A stretch of DNA of 64,000 bases from Candidatus Sysuiplasma jiujiangense (GTDB lineage Archaea; Thermoplasmatota; Thermoplasmata; Sysuiplasmatales; Sysuiplasmataceae), in the NCBI GenBank assembly GCA_019721075.1, contig JAHEAD010000002.1, forward strand, positions 152,949-216,948, read 5' to 3'. Made by a program: the position numbers and the translations under genes. Positions within the stretch are counted from its first letter, which is position 1. The number at the start of each line of letters is the position of its first letter. This document shows, piece after piece, positions 29,356 to 35,557 of the stretch. Below the pieces are notes generated by a model that was not told the DNA's origin, did no database searches, and saw only the letters and a list, made by a program, of their open reading frames with translations.

Positions 29356-32300
29356 TCACTTGTGCGCTATAGCCAGTCCGCATTCGCATCTGTCCGTCCT
29401 TGTCGAACAGACATCGTGGTACTCCCTGCCGCACCTGCACTCGTAAACTTCCATCCCCTCCCGTATCCTGCCCCTGCAGTACTGGCAGATACGTACAGCC
29501 TGAATGCTCCCTTTATCCATTCTGAACAGCTTGACGGTGACACTTTCGCCTTCGTCCAGGAGGTTTTTCGACCTGACCTCGACATTTACTTCGCCCGTTG
29601 CCCCTGACGAAATACCTATTCTCCTTTCCTGTCCGGGTTTGAGATTTCCAATGGTCTCGTTCATCCTGAATGTGCTGCCGCTGACGGTCGAGGTGACCTG
29701 GAGCGCAACTGCCTTCCCTGCATTAACAATCCTGACCGAAGCACCGCCCGCCTCATTCGCAGCCCGGATCTTGAGACGCGGAATCAGCGACTGCCTTGTT
29801 CTTTTCAGCTCCTCAAGTATCAGTGTTGCCTGTGCTGCCGAACTGTCCGGCAGGTCGGCATAAATTGCATTCAGCCTGCCATCAATATTTCTGAGATTCA
29901 CACCTGCATTGCGCAGCTCCCTGGAAATGCGCGCGATTTCGTCCTTCAATGGAGCCAGAGCCTTAAAAATCTCGGCCTTGCGGGCCGCATTCTCCCTGGT
30001 CTTCCGGAGATATGATATTGCCTCTTCATACCTCTGCTCTGAGACTAGCTCTTCTATTTTCCGATCTGCCTCAAGTCTGAGATCGTCCGGATAGCCAATG
30101 CCGTCCACAGCCCTCGACAGCGCCCCCTGAAGGGTCTCTATCATGACAAATGAGATATCCTTCAGCGCCGGACCGCTTATCGAGAGGGCATCAAGCATGT
30201 GACCTTCCATCATATTCTTCCTGGCCTGCTCCACCATACCCGGCCTGAATTCGATTCCGAGCTCCTCAGCTGCGGCAGTGGCCTTCTCAAGCCCGTTGAG
30301 GGCTGATACGCTTTCAGCCTGCAGCTTTTCCGAAGATGCTGCGTCAATTGAGGAAAGCAGCGAGAAAGCGTCTGATGTTCTGCCTTCCCTCAGGAATTCC
30401 CTGGCTCTCTGCAGGTCGTCAAACCAGCCCTTTTCTGAGACGCCTGCCTCGTTGTAGCTCTGAAGCCTCTTCTCGGTTTCGTCAACCCTTTCCCTGAGCA
30501 GCCTGACTTCAGACAGCATATCGTCCAGTATCTGCTCAATCCTGATCCCCTTCTCTATGACTTCACGGTATTTCTTTGCCGAAAGAAGGGATCTTATGGA
30601 TTCTGTCTCCTCCTTCAGGCTCTTTATCTCTACGCCTTGTTTCGCCGCCGATTCTATTTTTTCATTTGAAATATCAAGGGTGCGTTCTGCCATTTCCTTC
30701 TGGAGTTTCAGCCTGTCGTTCAGGTCCTTGATTTCAAGAAGGCCATCGATTGCGTTTTCGCTTCCCTGCTGGATTGCATCTGCAATTACGTCTATTTTCT
30801 TCCTTATCTCGGTCAGCCTGTCCTCAGAAATCAGCGACGTGACGGAAGCGGAATAGCGTTTCAGGAGTCCGGTACCGGAGGTTTTCAGCGACATGATGCA
30901 TATCTCGGTGCATTTCTGGGCTGTCTGCAGCGAGAGCAGATGCTGTTCATTGCTCAGCAGTGTCTTGGACTGCCTGAGCATTCCGATTGCACTGCCGTCT
31001 ATTATTCCGAGTTCGTCGAGCTTCTCGACAAAATTCTCCGCCTTACTGATGGCGTTTGCAGTCTCGGTCACCGCATTACGCGAGAAATTTAGTTCCTTGT
31101 CTGCAAGAGAGATACTGCTGAACGCCTGTTCATACTGCCCCCTGGCCAGAAGTTCTCTTGCCCTGTCGAGTCTCGATTCCACGAGCTTTACGTCTACGCC
31201 CTCCATTTCGGCCCTTGCGCTCTCCGCCGAGACCGATTTGACAGCACTTTCTATGGCATTCTGAATCACCGATTCAATATCGGCGGTTGCCTTTCTGCTG
31301 GCCAGAAGTGCGTCGTAATAGTTTCTTTCGCGCATGAGATTGCTGATGCTCACCCTCGTGTCTTCGAATTCCTGCACATCCAGGGAAAGGGAGCCCGCAA
31401 GCTGAATCAACCCTTTGAGTCTGATTATTTCCTTCGGTGCGAGAACGGATGACATTCCCCTGTCCTCCATCTCGAGAGCTTCCGATATTGCAGCGCTTGC
31501 TGAGAGATAATCGAAATGCTTAAGAGCGCTTCTTGCCGAGTTAAGCCGATCTTCCAGCCCTTCGATTGATAAATTGAGCTTCTTCGACTCCTGATACTGC
31601 CTTTCGGCCTTCTCCAGCTTTTCGGCAATCTCATCAACATGGCGAAGTTTTCCCTGTATCTCATCGTTCGCAAGGGAAACCATCCTGTTGGCCGTCTCGA
31701 AGTCCTCGAATTTGAGCGCGGCTCTTGCCCTTCCTATCAGGTTGTAGCCGTATCCTATTTCGATCTTCTTTCTCCTTGCAGTCGAAACCATTGCCATCAG
31801 ATCCGACATGACTTTGGAAAAGTAATCGGCGATAAGGCCGTAAATTATGTCGTGCGCCTCGCCTGCAGTTTTCAGGGCACCCTCCAGATCAATCGCCAAC
31901 TGTCTTTCCGCAGATTCCAGCATTGTGGTCGCCGATTTGACTGCAAGATTCGGGAAGATGGAGAGCAGGCGCCTCGATCTCTGTATAAGCGACTGCACCC
32001 TGAATACATCACCATTGCCTGACCAGTCCACAATATCCTTCGCAGTGCAGGCAGATCTGTAGTAGCTGTGATCCGCCTGGAGTTGTTTGGCCTCCTCCAC
32101 CAGTTTTCCGAGTCTCTCCTTCATGTTGCCGGTCGCCTGCTCGGTGCACTTTTTTGCTCTTTCCAGCCAGCTGTTGTTCATCTGCAGCAGCCTTGCCTCA
32201 ATCTCGGTGTCCATCCTGTTGGTAATCTCAATGCATTTGCTGTACTCTGAATTCCTGACAAATGAAACAGCGTTTTCCAGCTGCTCGTTCAGTTCGAGCG

Positions 32301-33756
32301 TTTCTGCGCCGAGATATTCGAGTGCTGAAATCTTCCTGTCGAGTGCGTCAATCTGGCTCGTGGAAAATGTCTCCAGCATCTGGTGCATGCTCTTGAGGAG
32401 GGATGTGGACGCTTCGATAAATTCTTCAAACTTCTTTTCCTCAAACTTGCGCTTTGCGTCGGCATACTTGATGCCTATGTCCACCGAATTGCTTATAAGG
32501 GATATGAGAACAGAATATTCATTTTCCATTTTTGAGAGAAGCTCATCGGCGCGGTTCATGCGCTCCGAAAGCTCTTTGGACTCCTCATTTGCAAGTTCGG
32601 CCATCCTGACCGCTTCCTCAAATCTTCTTTTCTTTACGAGCTCCCTCACCTCATTCAGCCTCTGGTTTATGCCGGTGAGATCGGCTCCTCTTTTCATCGC
32701 CTCTGCAATATACTTCCTGCTGTTGAATAAGACCCTGGCAATGTAGTCATATTTCGCCTTCTCGAATTCTGCTTCGAACGACTTCAGCGAGGAATAGGCT
32801 TTTTCAAAATTGCCTTCTGAAAGGAGTCGCTCGATTTCCTTGATCTTCAGAGACGACGACGATGCAACAGCCTCGTTGAGCGTGCTGTTTGAAAGCTCGC
32901 TCCGGATGGTTTTTATGTTTGCCTCGAAAGCCTTCCTCAGCCTCTGGTCCACATCCCTCCGCAGGGACAGAAGTAGAGACTCTAACTCACCAAATTTCTG
33001 TTCCGGGGGGAGTGCCTGGATTGATGCAAGACGGTCTTTCATCGATGATGTGCCAAGACCGAACAGACGCGATATCTCAATTCTGGCGGATATATCCTTG
33101 ATCTGCGCATCTGCGTTCTTCCTGAACTGCGAGACTATCGAAACGCCTGCCTCCTCGAGCAGCCGGAACGCATTTTCATAATTCCCGGAACTCATTTCAT
33201 TCCTGGCGCTGGAAAGCAGGCTATCGACACCTTCAATTGCAAGGCCGTGCGACTTTGCCTCCACTATCGTTCTCTGGACTTTAGAAAATTCATTGGAATA
33301 CAGTTCGGATAAATTCTTTTCCTCCCTCGACCATACCTCTGTAATTGCTGCGTCCGCACTCTCGTACTCCTTTCTTGCAAGGAGCATGCGCACCTGCTCA
33401 ATGTTCTCGCCGACCATGCCGATGTTTACCCCCTTCGAGCGGAGGAATTCAAGGATTCTTGCAGTTGAATCTATCCTTGAACTGAATATCTTCTGAAGTT
33501 CCTCGTTGAGGCCGTCTATCGCAACGGAGGCGGCAGAGATGCATTCCCTGTACTCCCTTGCGTTGAAACTGACTTCAGCCTTCTTTGAATTCTCCTGGAA
33601 GTCCTTTGAGGAAAATCCGATTTTTTCGCAGAGCAGCGCAAGTGAGGACAGCTCCCTCATCTTGGCCTCGGCGTCCTCCTTCTCCTGGGCTATTTCCTTC
33701 GCCTTGTCGGCAAGCTGCTTGCCGAGTTTCATGTTGCCGAAATAGTTTCCTGTCAA
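29356..33756 (-). CDS. Giant helical-repeat protein with C-terminal RING/PHD-like zinc finger
   Basis: A 1466-residue, highly charged, almost entirely helical protein. About a dozen degenerate units of roughly 90-110 residues recur, each with a helix ending in a pattern like (A/L)-x-x-G-x-Y/F-E-x-A followed by an acidic helix (for example ARKEYESADAAI, SSGNYENAFRLL, ARGQYEQAFSSI, SEQRYEEAISYL). Near 1330-1415 is a beta-rich domain (VRIVNAGKAVALQVT...RRIGISSG) of CARDB-like look. The end holds eight metal ligands: C1424, C1427, C1440, C1442, H1447, C1450, C1457, C1459, a C4HC3 order as in RING-CH/PHD fingers. No signal peptide or TM. The start is TTG 33756, about 22 bp below a TATATATA; ATG 33732 is possible. 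Function unknown; the repeats suggest a scaffold. Confidence 0.85.
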   Translation of the reverse strand: MTGNYFGNMKLGKQLADKAKEIAQEKEDAEAKMRELSSLALLCEKIGFSSKDFQENSKKAEVSFNAREYRECISAASVAIDGLNEELQKIFSSRIDSTARILEFLRSKGVNIGMVGENIEQVRMLLARKEYESADAAITEVWSREEKNLSELYSNEFSKVQRTIVEAKSHGLAIEGVDSLLSSARNEMSSGNYENAFRLLEEAGVSIVSQFRKNADAQIKDISARIEISRLFGLGTSSMKDRLASIQALPPEQKFGELESLLLSLRRDVDQRLRKAFEANIKTIRSELSNSTLNEAVASSSSLKIKEIERLLSEGNFEKAYSSLKSFEAEFEKAKYDYIARVLFNSRKYIAEAMKRGADLTGINQRLNEVRELVKKRRFEEAVRMAELANEESKELSERMNRADELLSKMENEYSVLISLISNSVDIGIKYADAKRKFEEKKFEEFIEASTSLLKSMHQMLETFSTSQIDALDRKISALEYLGAETLELNEQLENAVSFVRNSEYSKCIEITNRMDTEIEARLLQMNNSWLERAKKCTEQATGNMKERLGKLVEEAKQLQADHSYYRSACTAKDIVDWSGNGDVFRVQSLIQRSRRLLSIFPNLAVKSATTMLESAERQLAIDLEGALKTAGEAHDIIYGLIADYFSKVMSDLMAMVSTARRKKIEIGYGYNLIGRARAALKFEDFETANRMVSLANDEIQGKLRHVDEIAEKLEKAERQYQESKKLNLSIEGLEDRLNSARSALKHFDYLSASAAISEALEMEDRGMSSVLAPKEIIRLKGLIQLAGSLSLDVQEFEDTRVSISNLMRERNYYDALLASRKATADIESVIQNAIESAVKSVSAESARAEMEGVDVKLVESRLDRARELLARGQYEQAFSSISLADKELNFSRNAVTETANAISKAENFVEKLDELGIIDGSAIGMLRQSKTLLSNEQHLLSLQTAQKCTEICIMSLKTSGTGLLKRYSASVTSLISEDRLTEIRKKIDVIADAIQQGSENAIDGLLEIKDLNDRLKLQKEMAERTLDISNEKIESAAKQGVEIKSLKEETESIRSLLSAKKYREVIEKGIRIEQILDDMLSEVRLLRERVDETEKRLQSYNEAGVSEKGWFDDLQRAREFLREGRTSDAFSLLSSIDAASSEKLQAESVSALNGLEKATAAAEELGIEFRPGMVEQARKNMMEGHMLDALSISGPALKDISFVMIETLQGALSRAVDGIGYPDDLRLEADRKIEELVSEQRYEEAISYLRKTRENAARKAEIFKALAPLKDEIARISRELRNAGVNLRNIDGRLNAIYADLPDSSAAQATLILEELKRTRQSLIPRLKIRAANEAGGASVRIVNAGKAVALQVTSTVSGSTFRMNETIGNLKPGQERRIGISSGATGEVNVEVRSKNLLDEGESVTVKLFRMDKGSIQAVRICQYCRGRIREGMEVYECRCGREYHDVCSTRTDRCECGLAIAHK

Positions 33757-33977
33757 CTGGGCTTCACCGGCGTATATATATCATAATGAGTCAGCACAAC
33801 AGCTCGGATTTCCGTTCATTCCGTATAAATATAATGACGTAGTTACGCCGCCTGATTTTCAGCCAGCACTGCCTTTCGGGACGCAGGTGCTGGGCTGACT
33901 GCCGAAACTGCGTGATCCCGTATGGCTTCCAGGCTTCCTGGAGCGAGACATGTTCCGTCGCCGCAGAGGCTGCTGAC

Positions 33978-34859
33978 ATGTGGAAAAGATTATTCAACCG
34001 AAGCGTGATACCGGAGCCTATGGGATTGGATGCACTTGGATTGAGGATGCCTACGGGCGTGTCTGATTTTGACTCCATAATAGACGGCGGACTTCCTGCC
34101 GGTTCCGTTGTTCTTCTGCTTGGAGACGTAGGAAGCGGTTTCGTTGAATTTGCATACACATCCGCCGCCAAAATTTCGCTGGCAATGGAGAGACCTGCAT
34201 CGATGAGCTATCTTATGGGTGACAGAGCTGCCGCTGGCAGGCTGCCGGAAAACATTCATTACGTCACTTTCTTCAAACCCAGGGAGGAAATACTTCAGGA
34301 AATATTGTTTTCATTCAACGAGGAGTTCCACGGGGCATTTGAAAAGAACGTGAAATTCACTGACTTCTCTGAGTATTATTTTGAGAAGTCAGTGGTGCCT
34401 GCATCGTGGGTGGACAGGCAGGGAGGCCTGCTGAGAAAAGGCTCTTCCTCGCTCATAAACTCGATTGTCGATTTTCTTGACAGGCAGGCGCAGGGCAGCT
34501 TCATAATCATTGATTCACTGACAGATCTTCTCCTGAGCGAAAGCATAGAACTGATGGATATTGTCGCGATGCTCCGCGGGATACAGCGCATGTCAAAAAA
34601 ATGGAAAGGCGTCATCTACCTCCTGCTGACTGAGGGCATACTTGAGAAGAGGAAGGAGCAGATGATAATAGACAGCGTTGACGGCGTGTTTGTCTTCGAA
34701 TGGAGCAAGAATACCAGCAGCAGCAAGAGGCAGCGATACATCTACATATCGAAGTTTGTGAGCCTGATGCCGCATCTCGACGAGCAGAGAGTGGCCAGAT
34801 TTGCAACAACTCTGACATCCCAGAGCGGCCTCGTGGTAATAGATACGGAGAGGATATGA
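33978..34859 (+). CDS. KaiC-like protein with inactivated P-loop
   Basis: RecA/KaiC-fold protein of 293 residues. It starts like a KaiC domain (MPTGVSDFDSIIDGGLPAGSVVLLLGD), but Walker A reads GDVGSGFV: Phe and Val occupy the Lys and Ser/Thr positions (codon at 34140-34142). A hydrophobic Walker B-like strand IIIDSLTDLL remains. It is therefore unlikely to hydrolyse ATP alone. The downstream intact KaiC protein overlaps by four bases, suggesting an obligate heteromer of inactive and active subunits. I chose ATG 33978; the 22 residues an upstream GTG would add look non-coding. Confidence 0.82.
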   Translation: MWKRLFNRSVIPEPMGLDALGLRMPTGVSDFDSIIDGGLPAGSVVLLLGDVGSGFVEFAYTSAAKISLAMERPASMSYLMGDRAAAGRLPENIHYVTFFKPREEILQEILFSFNEEFHGAFEKNVKFTDFSEYYFEKSVVPASWVDRQGGLLRKGSSSLINSIVDFLDRQAQGSFIIIDSLTDLLLSESIELMDIVAMLRGIQRMSKKWKGVIYLLLTEGILEKRKEQMIIDSVDGVFVFEWSKNTSSSKRQRYIYISKFVSLMPHLDEQRVARFATTLTSQSGLVVIDTERI

Positions 34860-35557
34860 TGGCCTCCGTACAGCCCACAGGGATAGAGGGACTGGATGAC
34901 ATGCTGGGAGGGGGCATACCTGGAGGTGCCATTGTTGTCATACTGGGGTCATTCGGCACGGGCAAGACGACAATGAGCATCCAGTATCTTCTGAAGGGAC
35001 TGAGTTCGGGCGAAAAATGCATTTACATTTCTCTTGAGGAGGACGAGAAATCAATTGTAAAGAACGCTCTGACCTATGGATGGAGACTCGGCGATTACAC
35101 CGGTAACGGAATGCTCTCGATAATCAAGCTTGAGCCGTCAGATGCCAAAACAACGCTTGAACGAGTGAAGAGCGAATTTCCCCGGTTCATCCGTGAATTC
35201 GGCGCAAGCAGGGTCGTAATAGACTCGATCTCGCTGCTGACCATGCTTTACGAGAGCGAATCGGAGAAGAGAACAGGCCTTTTCAACCTGTGCGACCTGA
35301 TAAGGCAGTCCGGTGCAGGCGCTCTTCTGACTTCGGAAGTAAATGAAAACCACCCCTCTTCCTCCAGAGACGGAATGGTGGAATATACGGCGGACGGCGT
35401 AATACTTCTCCAGAGCACGGAGTCGAAGGACGCTTCTGAGCAACAGCTTACGCTCAGGGTCGTAAAAATGAGGGGTGTGGCCCATTCGAGGAGGATAAAG
35501 CCTTACAGCATTACGAGAGAAGGGATAGTTGTTCATTCCGGATCGGAGATATTCTGA
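34856..35557 (+). CDS. KaiC-like RecA-superfamily ATPase
   Basis: Single-domain KaiC protein of 233 residues with intact Walker A GSFGTGKTT (about residues 28-36), a catalytic YISLEEDEKS glutamate pair and Walker B VVIDSISLL, ending in KMRGVAHSRRIKPYSI, a typical KaiC finish. The start ATG at 34856 overlaps the stop of the degenerate partner (ATGA), so an upstream frame to 34700 is not coding. Archaeal single-domain KaiC proteins are implicated in signalling and in regulating taxis or transcription; the role here is unknown. Confidence 0.92.
   Translation: MMASVQPTGIEGLDDMLGGGIPGGAIVVILGSFGTGKTTMSIQYLLKGLSSGEKCIYISLEEDEKSIVKNALTYGWRLGDYTGNGMLSIIKLEPSDAKTTLERVKSEFPRFIREFGASRVVIDSISLLTMLYESESEKRTGLFNLCDLIRQSGAGALLTSEVNENHPSSSRDGMVEYTADGVILLQSTESKDASEQQLTLRVVKMRGVAHSRRIKPYSITREGIVVHSGSEIF

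Follow-up and report, generated by a model that had tools for sequence, protein, structure and literature searches.

Heteromers of RecA-fold subunits, some of them without ATPase function, are familiar from eukaryotes, Rad55-Rad57 and the Shu-type Rad51 paralogues being examples. Cyanobacterial KaiC carries two tandem domains of the same fold in one protein. In archaea, an inactivated KaiC-like domain has been defined as iKaiC, and the cases given in the sections on these domains are divergent, possibly inactivated KaiC ATPase domains fused with signalling domains (PMC5847659). The single RecA domain protein SSO2452 (aRadC) is a RadA paralogue, reported in the part of one article that deals with it as an ssDNA binder and D-loop inhibitor (PMC8708640) and mentioned in another as a protein that may partner the SSB-ssDNA complex (PMC10003305). 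Finally, the NCBIfam entry TIGR03880 (KaiC_arch_3) is a hypoth_equivalog, a family without assigned function.

Here, we describe two overlapping KaiC-type genes, K1 and K2, in a stretch of 64,000 nucleotides (hereafter the window) from a Thermoplasmata archaeon with a 2.29 Mb genome. K1 resembles iKaiC in its divergent, possibly inactivated ATPase domain and may already be listed among the inactivated KaiC of Makarova 2017, but it stands alone and has a strict active partner. The P-loop and Glu pair of cyanobacterial KaiC are shared by K2; in contrast to that protein, two single-domain proteins are present, one of them dead. A canonical P-loop (GEPGTGKT) is present in SSO2452, which among solved proteins matches the K1 profile best by sequence, but is absent from K1. 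An initial annotation, made from the letters of the window, had described two overlapping KaiC genes, one with a dead and one with an intact P-loop, transcribed divergently from a giant repeat protein, and all of these elements are present, as follows (window coordinates).

29356 to 33756, minus strand: the giant, a 1466-aa helical-repeat protein with an Ig-like domain and a RING-like tail; no Pfam family above its cut-off
29380 to 29487, minus strand: RING-like zinc tail of the giant, ligand order C-C-C-C-H-C-C-C; 8 ligands invariant in 25/25 relatives
33757 to 34019, no strand: shared divergent intergenic region, 263 bp; K1 and giant starts aligned in relatives
33824 to 33832, plus strand: likely K1-K2 promoter element, TATAAATAT, read by eye
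34020 to 34859, plus strand: K1, a KaiC/RecA-fold pseudo-ATPase of 279 aa; conserved start in six family members, AlphaFold2 fold and 45-member family alignment
34122 to 34148, plus strand: degenerate P-loop of K1, GDVGSGFVE; no Lys in 132/132 relatives
34856 to 35557, plus strand: K2, an active-type single-domain KaiC ATPase of 233 aa, TIGR03880 KaiC_arch_3; 268.5 bits against a cut-off of 249.45
34946 to 34972, plus strand: intact P-loop of K2, GSFGTGKTT; K37 in 130/130 relatives

K1 and K2 lie on the plus strand with a 4-base overlap (ATGA), and the giant gene is divergent on the minus strand. The start of K1 was placed at ATG 34020, which is conserved in six aligned Sysuiplasmataceae members, the window and five others (ATGGGATYGGATGCRCG; ATGGGATYGGRTGCRCG including L035), and 5' of which the sequence is variable; the other candidate starts, GTG 33912 and ATG 33978, are purely mechanical. 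Residues of K1 are numbered from ATG 33978 (293-aa version), as in the alignments. The same six members also share an aligned giant start (TTG/GTG at 33756), and between the aligned starts the shared region measures 263 bp instead of the roughly 220 bp estimated at first. The ATAAA core of the promoter element is likewise aligned in all six. ATG 34856, which lies four bases within K1, is the start of K2, and a longer K2 ORF from 34700 was discarded as a listing artefact.

We then compared K1 across 132 non-redundant loci, using labels (Walker A, Walker B, catalytic Glu, finger) that we take from general knowledge of RecA/KaiC ATPases. The P-loop Lys is absent in all 132, and an intact first P-loop, which would have contradicted the idea of a conserved dead site, was found in none (0/132). 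Gly 52 and Gly 54 are invariant (132/132), position 57 is always acidic (Glu in 128, Asp in 4) and most members share the signature G-[DE]-x-G-[ASG]-G-x-x-[ED]. Residue 100, aligned with the catalytic E62 of K2, is Arg or Lys in 130/132, and K1 is without the catalytic Glu pair. The Walker-B Asp is kept in 130/132, with Glu in the other two, and the finger Lys K259, which aligns with K204 of K2, is also kept in 130/132. A pseudogene or sequencing error was rejected, the frame being open in nearly all relatives and dN/dS being 0.05-0.08 within the window's family wherever dS was estimable; genome G018 has two TAA codons within the tblastn span, yet its own 278-codon K1 frame is open.

Residues 57 (34146-34148) and 100 (34275-34277) are nearly invariant together, an acid replacing the P-loop Thr and a base replacing the catalytic Glu. 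Judged from these residues, ATP chemistry is predicted to be lost in K1 through a conserved charge swap, and the 57-100 pair might make a permanent built-in salt bridge in the empty pocket.

K2, on the other hand, retains every catalytic residue. The P-loop K37, the catalytic E62 and the Walker B D123 are each found in 130/130 relatives, and K204 and R206 in 129/129. TIGR03880 is matched by 44/44 K2 relatives, and Haloferax volcanii also has a match over the cut-off. K1 lies outside this family: it does not pass the cut-off, and merely 11/45 K1 members match at all. Against the KaiC ATPase domain PF06745 (gathering cut-off 26.6 bits), K2 scored 202.3 bits and K1 36.1 bits, the latter with a best stretch that covers 30 residues only. 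Identity with the circadian clock KaiC (TIGR02655, two tandem domains, >546 bits) was rejected for the single-domain K2, which reached 107 bits. Similarly, K2 scored 33 bits against RadB (TIGR02237, cut-off 172.4 bits), for which separate genes reach 293 bits. Replacement of RadB by K1-K2 was also rejected, as RadA/RadB-type proteins are matched in 57/60 genomes with or without the pair, and so was a defence system, PADLOC returning nothing for K1 or the giant and a weak match (mad8, 5e-6) for K2.

Modelled with AlphaFold2 (mean pLDDT 83.7), K1 is a RecA/KaiC domain, aligning with KaiC CI at Z 22.2 and rmsd 3.1 A over 229 residues; FlaH (21.6) and SSO2452 (21.3) tie with it within about 1. The best PDB sequence match of the K1 profile is SSO2452 (E 1.3e-11), and comparison of the K1 and K2 profiles gave E 1e-8. 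By sequence, K1 may be considered a candidate aRadC/RadA paralogue; in fold, KaiC and FlaH score equally well. In single-protein HMM scans K1 came out about as close to KaiC_arch_4 as to ArlH, RadA and KaiC; it was therefore assigned to none of them, and no recombination family is favoured by these scores. The source genome (G000) has 13 KaiC-type matches in all, with further clusters at C5:20046-22038, C8:84525-87195, C14:20040-20663 and C3:94472-94960, and some of these other genes have odd P-loops (GQPGTMKT, GPSFIGKE).

A full-length homologue of K1 was found in Natrinema thermotolerans (QCC61401.1, 33% identity over 264 residues), whose product name, 'HTR-like protein', is the record's own label. 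This places K1 in a haloarchaeal HTR-like family. The protein shares VIDSLTDL with K1 and has the dead signature GESGAGARE at the same position, so the dead state extends outside the phylum. In contrast to K1, its finger Lys is Gln and no K2-type gene stands beside it in that one record. K1 and K2 are an old, selected pseudo-ATPase/ATPase couple and not a product of decay, because the dead K1 site and the adjacent K2 are conserved and the haloarchaeal protein carries the same dead signature.

We also determined how strictly the two genes keep together. Counts over the 132 loci were made by tblastn with named representatives, because a simple ORF caller picked antisense ORFs in GC-rich genomes. 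K2 adjoins K1 in 130/132 loci, and both misses are contig ends, 1 base past the K1 match; the genes are never separated where the contig continues, in agreement with the gene adjacency anticipated for relatives. Among 60 relatives, K1 (E < 1e-50) is present in 45 genomes with K2 beside it in 44, and in the 45th (G003) the contig is cut inside K1. In the 15 genomes that lack K1, no K2-like match goes below E 1e-31. Similarly, among 292 genomes of the phylum, K1 is found in 35 and a K2 ortholog in 34 of these, the exception (G090) having K1 alone at a contig edge, while G065 and G078 have weaker K2-type matches only (4e-41, 7e-44) and no K1 match. Out of 283 class genomes with a completeness of at least 85%, 160 have K1, and families f6 and f17 have no K1 among the matches listed.

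The surrounding genomic context was examined by tblastn with named representatives over the 132 loci, together with Pfam scans; flank lengths vary among loci, and a missing distant gene carries no weight. Co-directional near neighbours encode CinA-like proteins (40 loci), PurC (25), TruD (10), DinB (10) and SMC (2), with RPA (17) and an RPA-associated protein (14) upstream and co-directional. Operons of RPA with RPA-associated proteins are described for Haloferax in the pertinent part of a previous report (PMC7776575). FEN1 is near and co-directional in 12/132 loci, each time with a convergent PolD DP2 behind it. A count of DNA-gene neighbours within set limits gave RPA/RPAP 15, FEN1 12, DinB 10 and SMC 2, a total of 39/132, an enrichment that was spotted after the fact. 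The most frequent neighbours, CinA-like (40/132) and PurC (25/132), are not DNA genes, and the non-DNA contexts further include TruD, a molybdopterin oxidoreductase (window family) and an NAD epimerase (by eye). Each DNA neighbour is limited to one or a few clades of the K1+K2 tree; as these clades are separate, about four independent DNA contexts are suggested.

In locus L045, K1-K2-SMC-ScpA-ScpB all lie on one strand, where ScpA (307 aa, no Pfam match) is named from its position and from a tblastn search that already included it as one of the two ScpA queries; in L068, an SMC gene is present 3.4 kb downstream. SMC is near universal (273/283 genomes) whereas K1 occurs in 160/283, so K1-K2 cannot be a subunit that SMC always requires. 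In family f9 (L070-L074, L098, L100, L102, L103, L256) TruD and DinB flank the pair; a universal partnership with DinB was rejected, DinB being present in 21/60 genomes only. Genome G044, 98% complete, lacks true K1, K2 and DinB altogether, its sole K1-like match being weak (2e-7). Directly downstream of K2, families f4 and f13 (L057, L058, L062, L065; L067, L092, L093, L095, L254) have small orphan genes of about 107-121 codons, two representatives of which gave no Pfam match, and in L239 (family f26) a convergent KaiC-type gene (GCAGSMKSS) occupies this position.

Our best explanation, tentatively held and given slightly less than even chances, is that K1 and K2 form a heteromeric KaiC-type ATPase in DNA or chromosome maintenance. 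Formation of a heteromer is in itself likely. For a DNA or chromosome role we see an even chance; it is the most likely role because RPA, FEN1, DinB and SMC-ScpAB recur as operon neighbours of the pair in separate clades. Under this explanation, K1 and K2, presumably from one transcript, would enter a heteromeric RecA/KaiC-type assembly, in which K2 would bind and hydrolyse ATP and K1, without P-loop Lys and catalytic Glu, would be unable to do so. K1 would instead be a fixed structural, trans-acting subunit, offering K259, aligned with the K2 finger Lys, as a putative trans lysine. ATP turnover at K2-K1 interfaces would then switch the assembly between states, and the assembly would act on DNA or the chromosome, either in the manner of a Rad51 paralogue or in association with SMC.

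The strongest competing possibility is that K1-K2 is an archaeal inactivated/active KaiC switch pair whose ATP-driven assembly changes relay a signal with no direct DNA role, the DNA neighbours being accidents of clade-specific gene order. We regard this as somewhat unlikely. It fits the description of iKaiC domains, in the portion of the source that covers them, as parts of archaeal signalling systems (PMC5847659), the 13 KaiC-type genes of the genome and the many metabolic neighbours. However, the neighbours examined revealed no recognisable receiver, kinase or sensor domain next to the pair or fused with it, no signalling input or output domain linked to it was recognised among the recurrent neighbours annotated, and RPA, FEN1, DinB and SMC recur.

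The initial annotation had gone further and cast the giant as the scaffold of the KaiC pair in one signalling or assembly module. Members of the giant family have about 1450-1620 residues, with helical hairpin repeats, an Ig-like domain and an eight-ligand tail. The RING-like tail is real, its eight Cys/His ligands being invariant in the 25 aligned relatives and arranged as C4HC3; a RING-type E3 ligase is a possible identity. The last 330 residues were modelled with a pLDDT of 91 and the tail with about 72-90; a Foldseek search with the C-terminus gave no RING among the matches listed and no convincing PDB match. A short conserved peptide of basic and hydrophobic residues (KKRVALKI-like) forms the C-terminus of the giants of L187, L189, L192, L194, L198-L203 and L051; a Pro-rich linker precedes it in three of them, and it is missing from the window's family.

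The dead/active pairing of that module stood up well (0/132 intact, 130/132 adjacent); the giant as a general scaffold did not, as it adjoins the pair in 8/132 loci only, seven from the window's own family (Sysuiplasmataceae) and one from a genome of a second family. A dedicated scaffold is therefore improbable in our view. In its favor, the giant is a divergent neighbour in the 7 family loci and co-directional in L051 (K1-K2-giant), unlike the divergent window family, and in families f3, f19, f20, f23, f25 and f62 some 6-12 kb separate it from the pair (about 7-9 kb in L038, L039, L040 and L042; about 6-12 kb in L265, L266, L267, L270 and L272). Against it, the pair occurs in families f9, f24 and f68 without a strong giant match, the giant being absent or too diverged to match, and families f2 and f21 have the giant without the pair.

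The tightest partner of the giant elsewhere is SMC-ScpA-ScpB. We examined 52 giant loci (L185-L204, L258-L282, L051, the window and five other family members, with L271 and L282 from one genome), and 17/52, from families f14, f18, f21, f23, f65 and f66, show SMC-ScpA-(ScpB)-giant with all genes pointing the same way. For L267, from f23, the order is SMC-ScpA-giant with no ScpB detected, and the other 35/52 are without this order, some owing to short contigs. In L188, L190, L191, L193, L204, L258-L261, L269, L275 and L278-L282 the giant comes last after SMC, ScpA and ScpB, mostly with a convergent gene for histidine ammonia-lyase (HutH) behind. The giant that follows SMC-ScpA-ScpB is a candidate for an unrecognised SMC-operon protein. 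ScpB is stated to be absent from most archaeal genomes analysed, in the part of a previous article where HAWKs are also mentioned (PMC7055376).

A weaker link between giant and pair remains in the 6-12 kb spacing of six families and in the presence of both within SMC-ScpAB clusters. Overall, the giant is a lineage-specific neighbour of the pair, and a slight indication exists that the place of both is near the SMC complex. The ancestral order may have been K1-K2-SMC-ScpA-ScpB-giant facing HutH, which is a reading of gene orders and no reconstruction; its pieces are K1-K2-SMC-ScpA-ScpB in family f8, K1-K2-giant facing HutH in f12, and SMC-ScpA-ScpB-giant, mostly facing HutH, in f14, f18, f21, f65 and f66. 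That the archaeal SMC-ScpAB complex has K1-K2 and the giant as hitherto overlooked accessory factors is nevertheless doubtful, and a direct SMC role of the pair is speculative and on the whole unlikely.

Two further explanations fare less well. K1 and K2 could be co-transcribed paralogues with separate jobs and without a complex, for which the haloarchaeal K1 homologue standing without K2 (one record) may be cited; this seems quite improbable, as the 130/132 adjacency spans more than 20 families whose other neighbours are shuffled and K1 and K2 are jointly present or absent. An ArlH/FlaH-like platform of a surface filament machine is hardly credible: K1 does have ArlH among its leading NCBIfam matches (43/45 members, best 1.7e-8) and FlaH reaches a fold Z of 21.6, but the window K1 scores 25.8 bits and K2 53.8, with K1 far below the 215-bit ArlH cut-off, and the annotated neighbours of the pair include no identified ATPase of a pilus or archaellum.

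The literature searched contained nothing combining ScpA, ScpB and KaiC, and, among the articles listed, the pair was not found described in work on Thermoplasmata KaiC or SMC gene neighbourhoods, on Methanomassiliicoccales ScpA/condensin/Rad55, or on inactivated KaiC heteromers; the haloarchaeal reviews searched mention neither HTR-like proteins nor KaiC. The combination of inactivated and active KaiC is known in outline, and the chromosome-maintenance context looks new.

With its exceptionless dead site and strict active neighbour, K1 is a clean case of non-catalytic subunits in RecA-fold assemblies, and as the HTR-like protein belongs to the same family, haloarchaeal researchers gain a testable gene. 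If the SMC-accessory reading were true, the giant, as a subunit built of helical repeats, would take the place that HAWKs occupy in eukaryotes, and K1-K2 would act as a loader or remodeller powered by ATP. In summary, that the pair stays together in Thermoplasmata archaea and tends to lie near replication, repair and chromosome-folding genes suggests an unstudied two-part DNA-maintenance machine.
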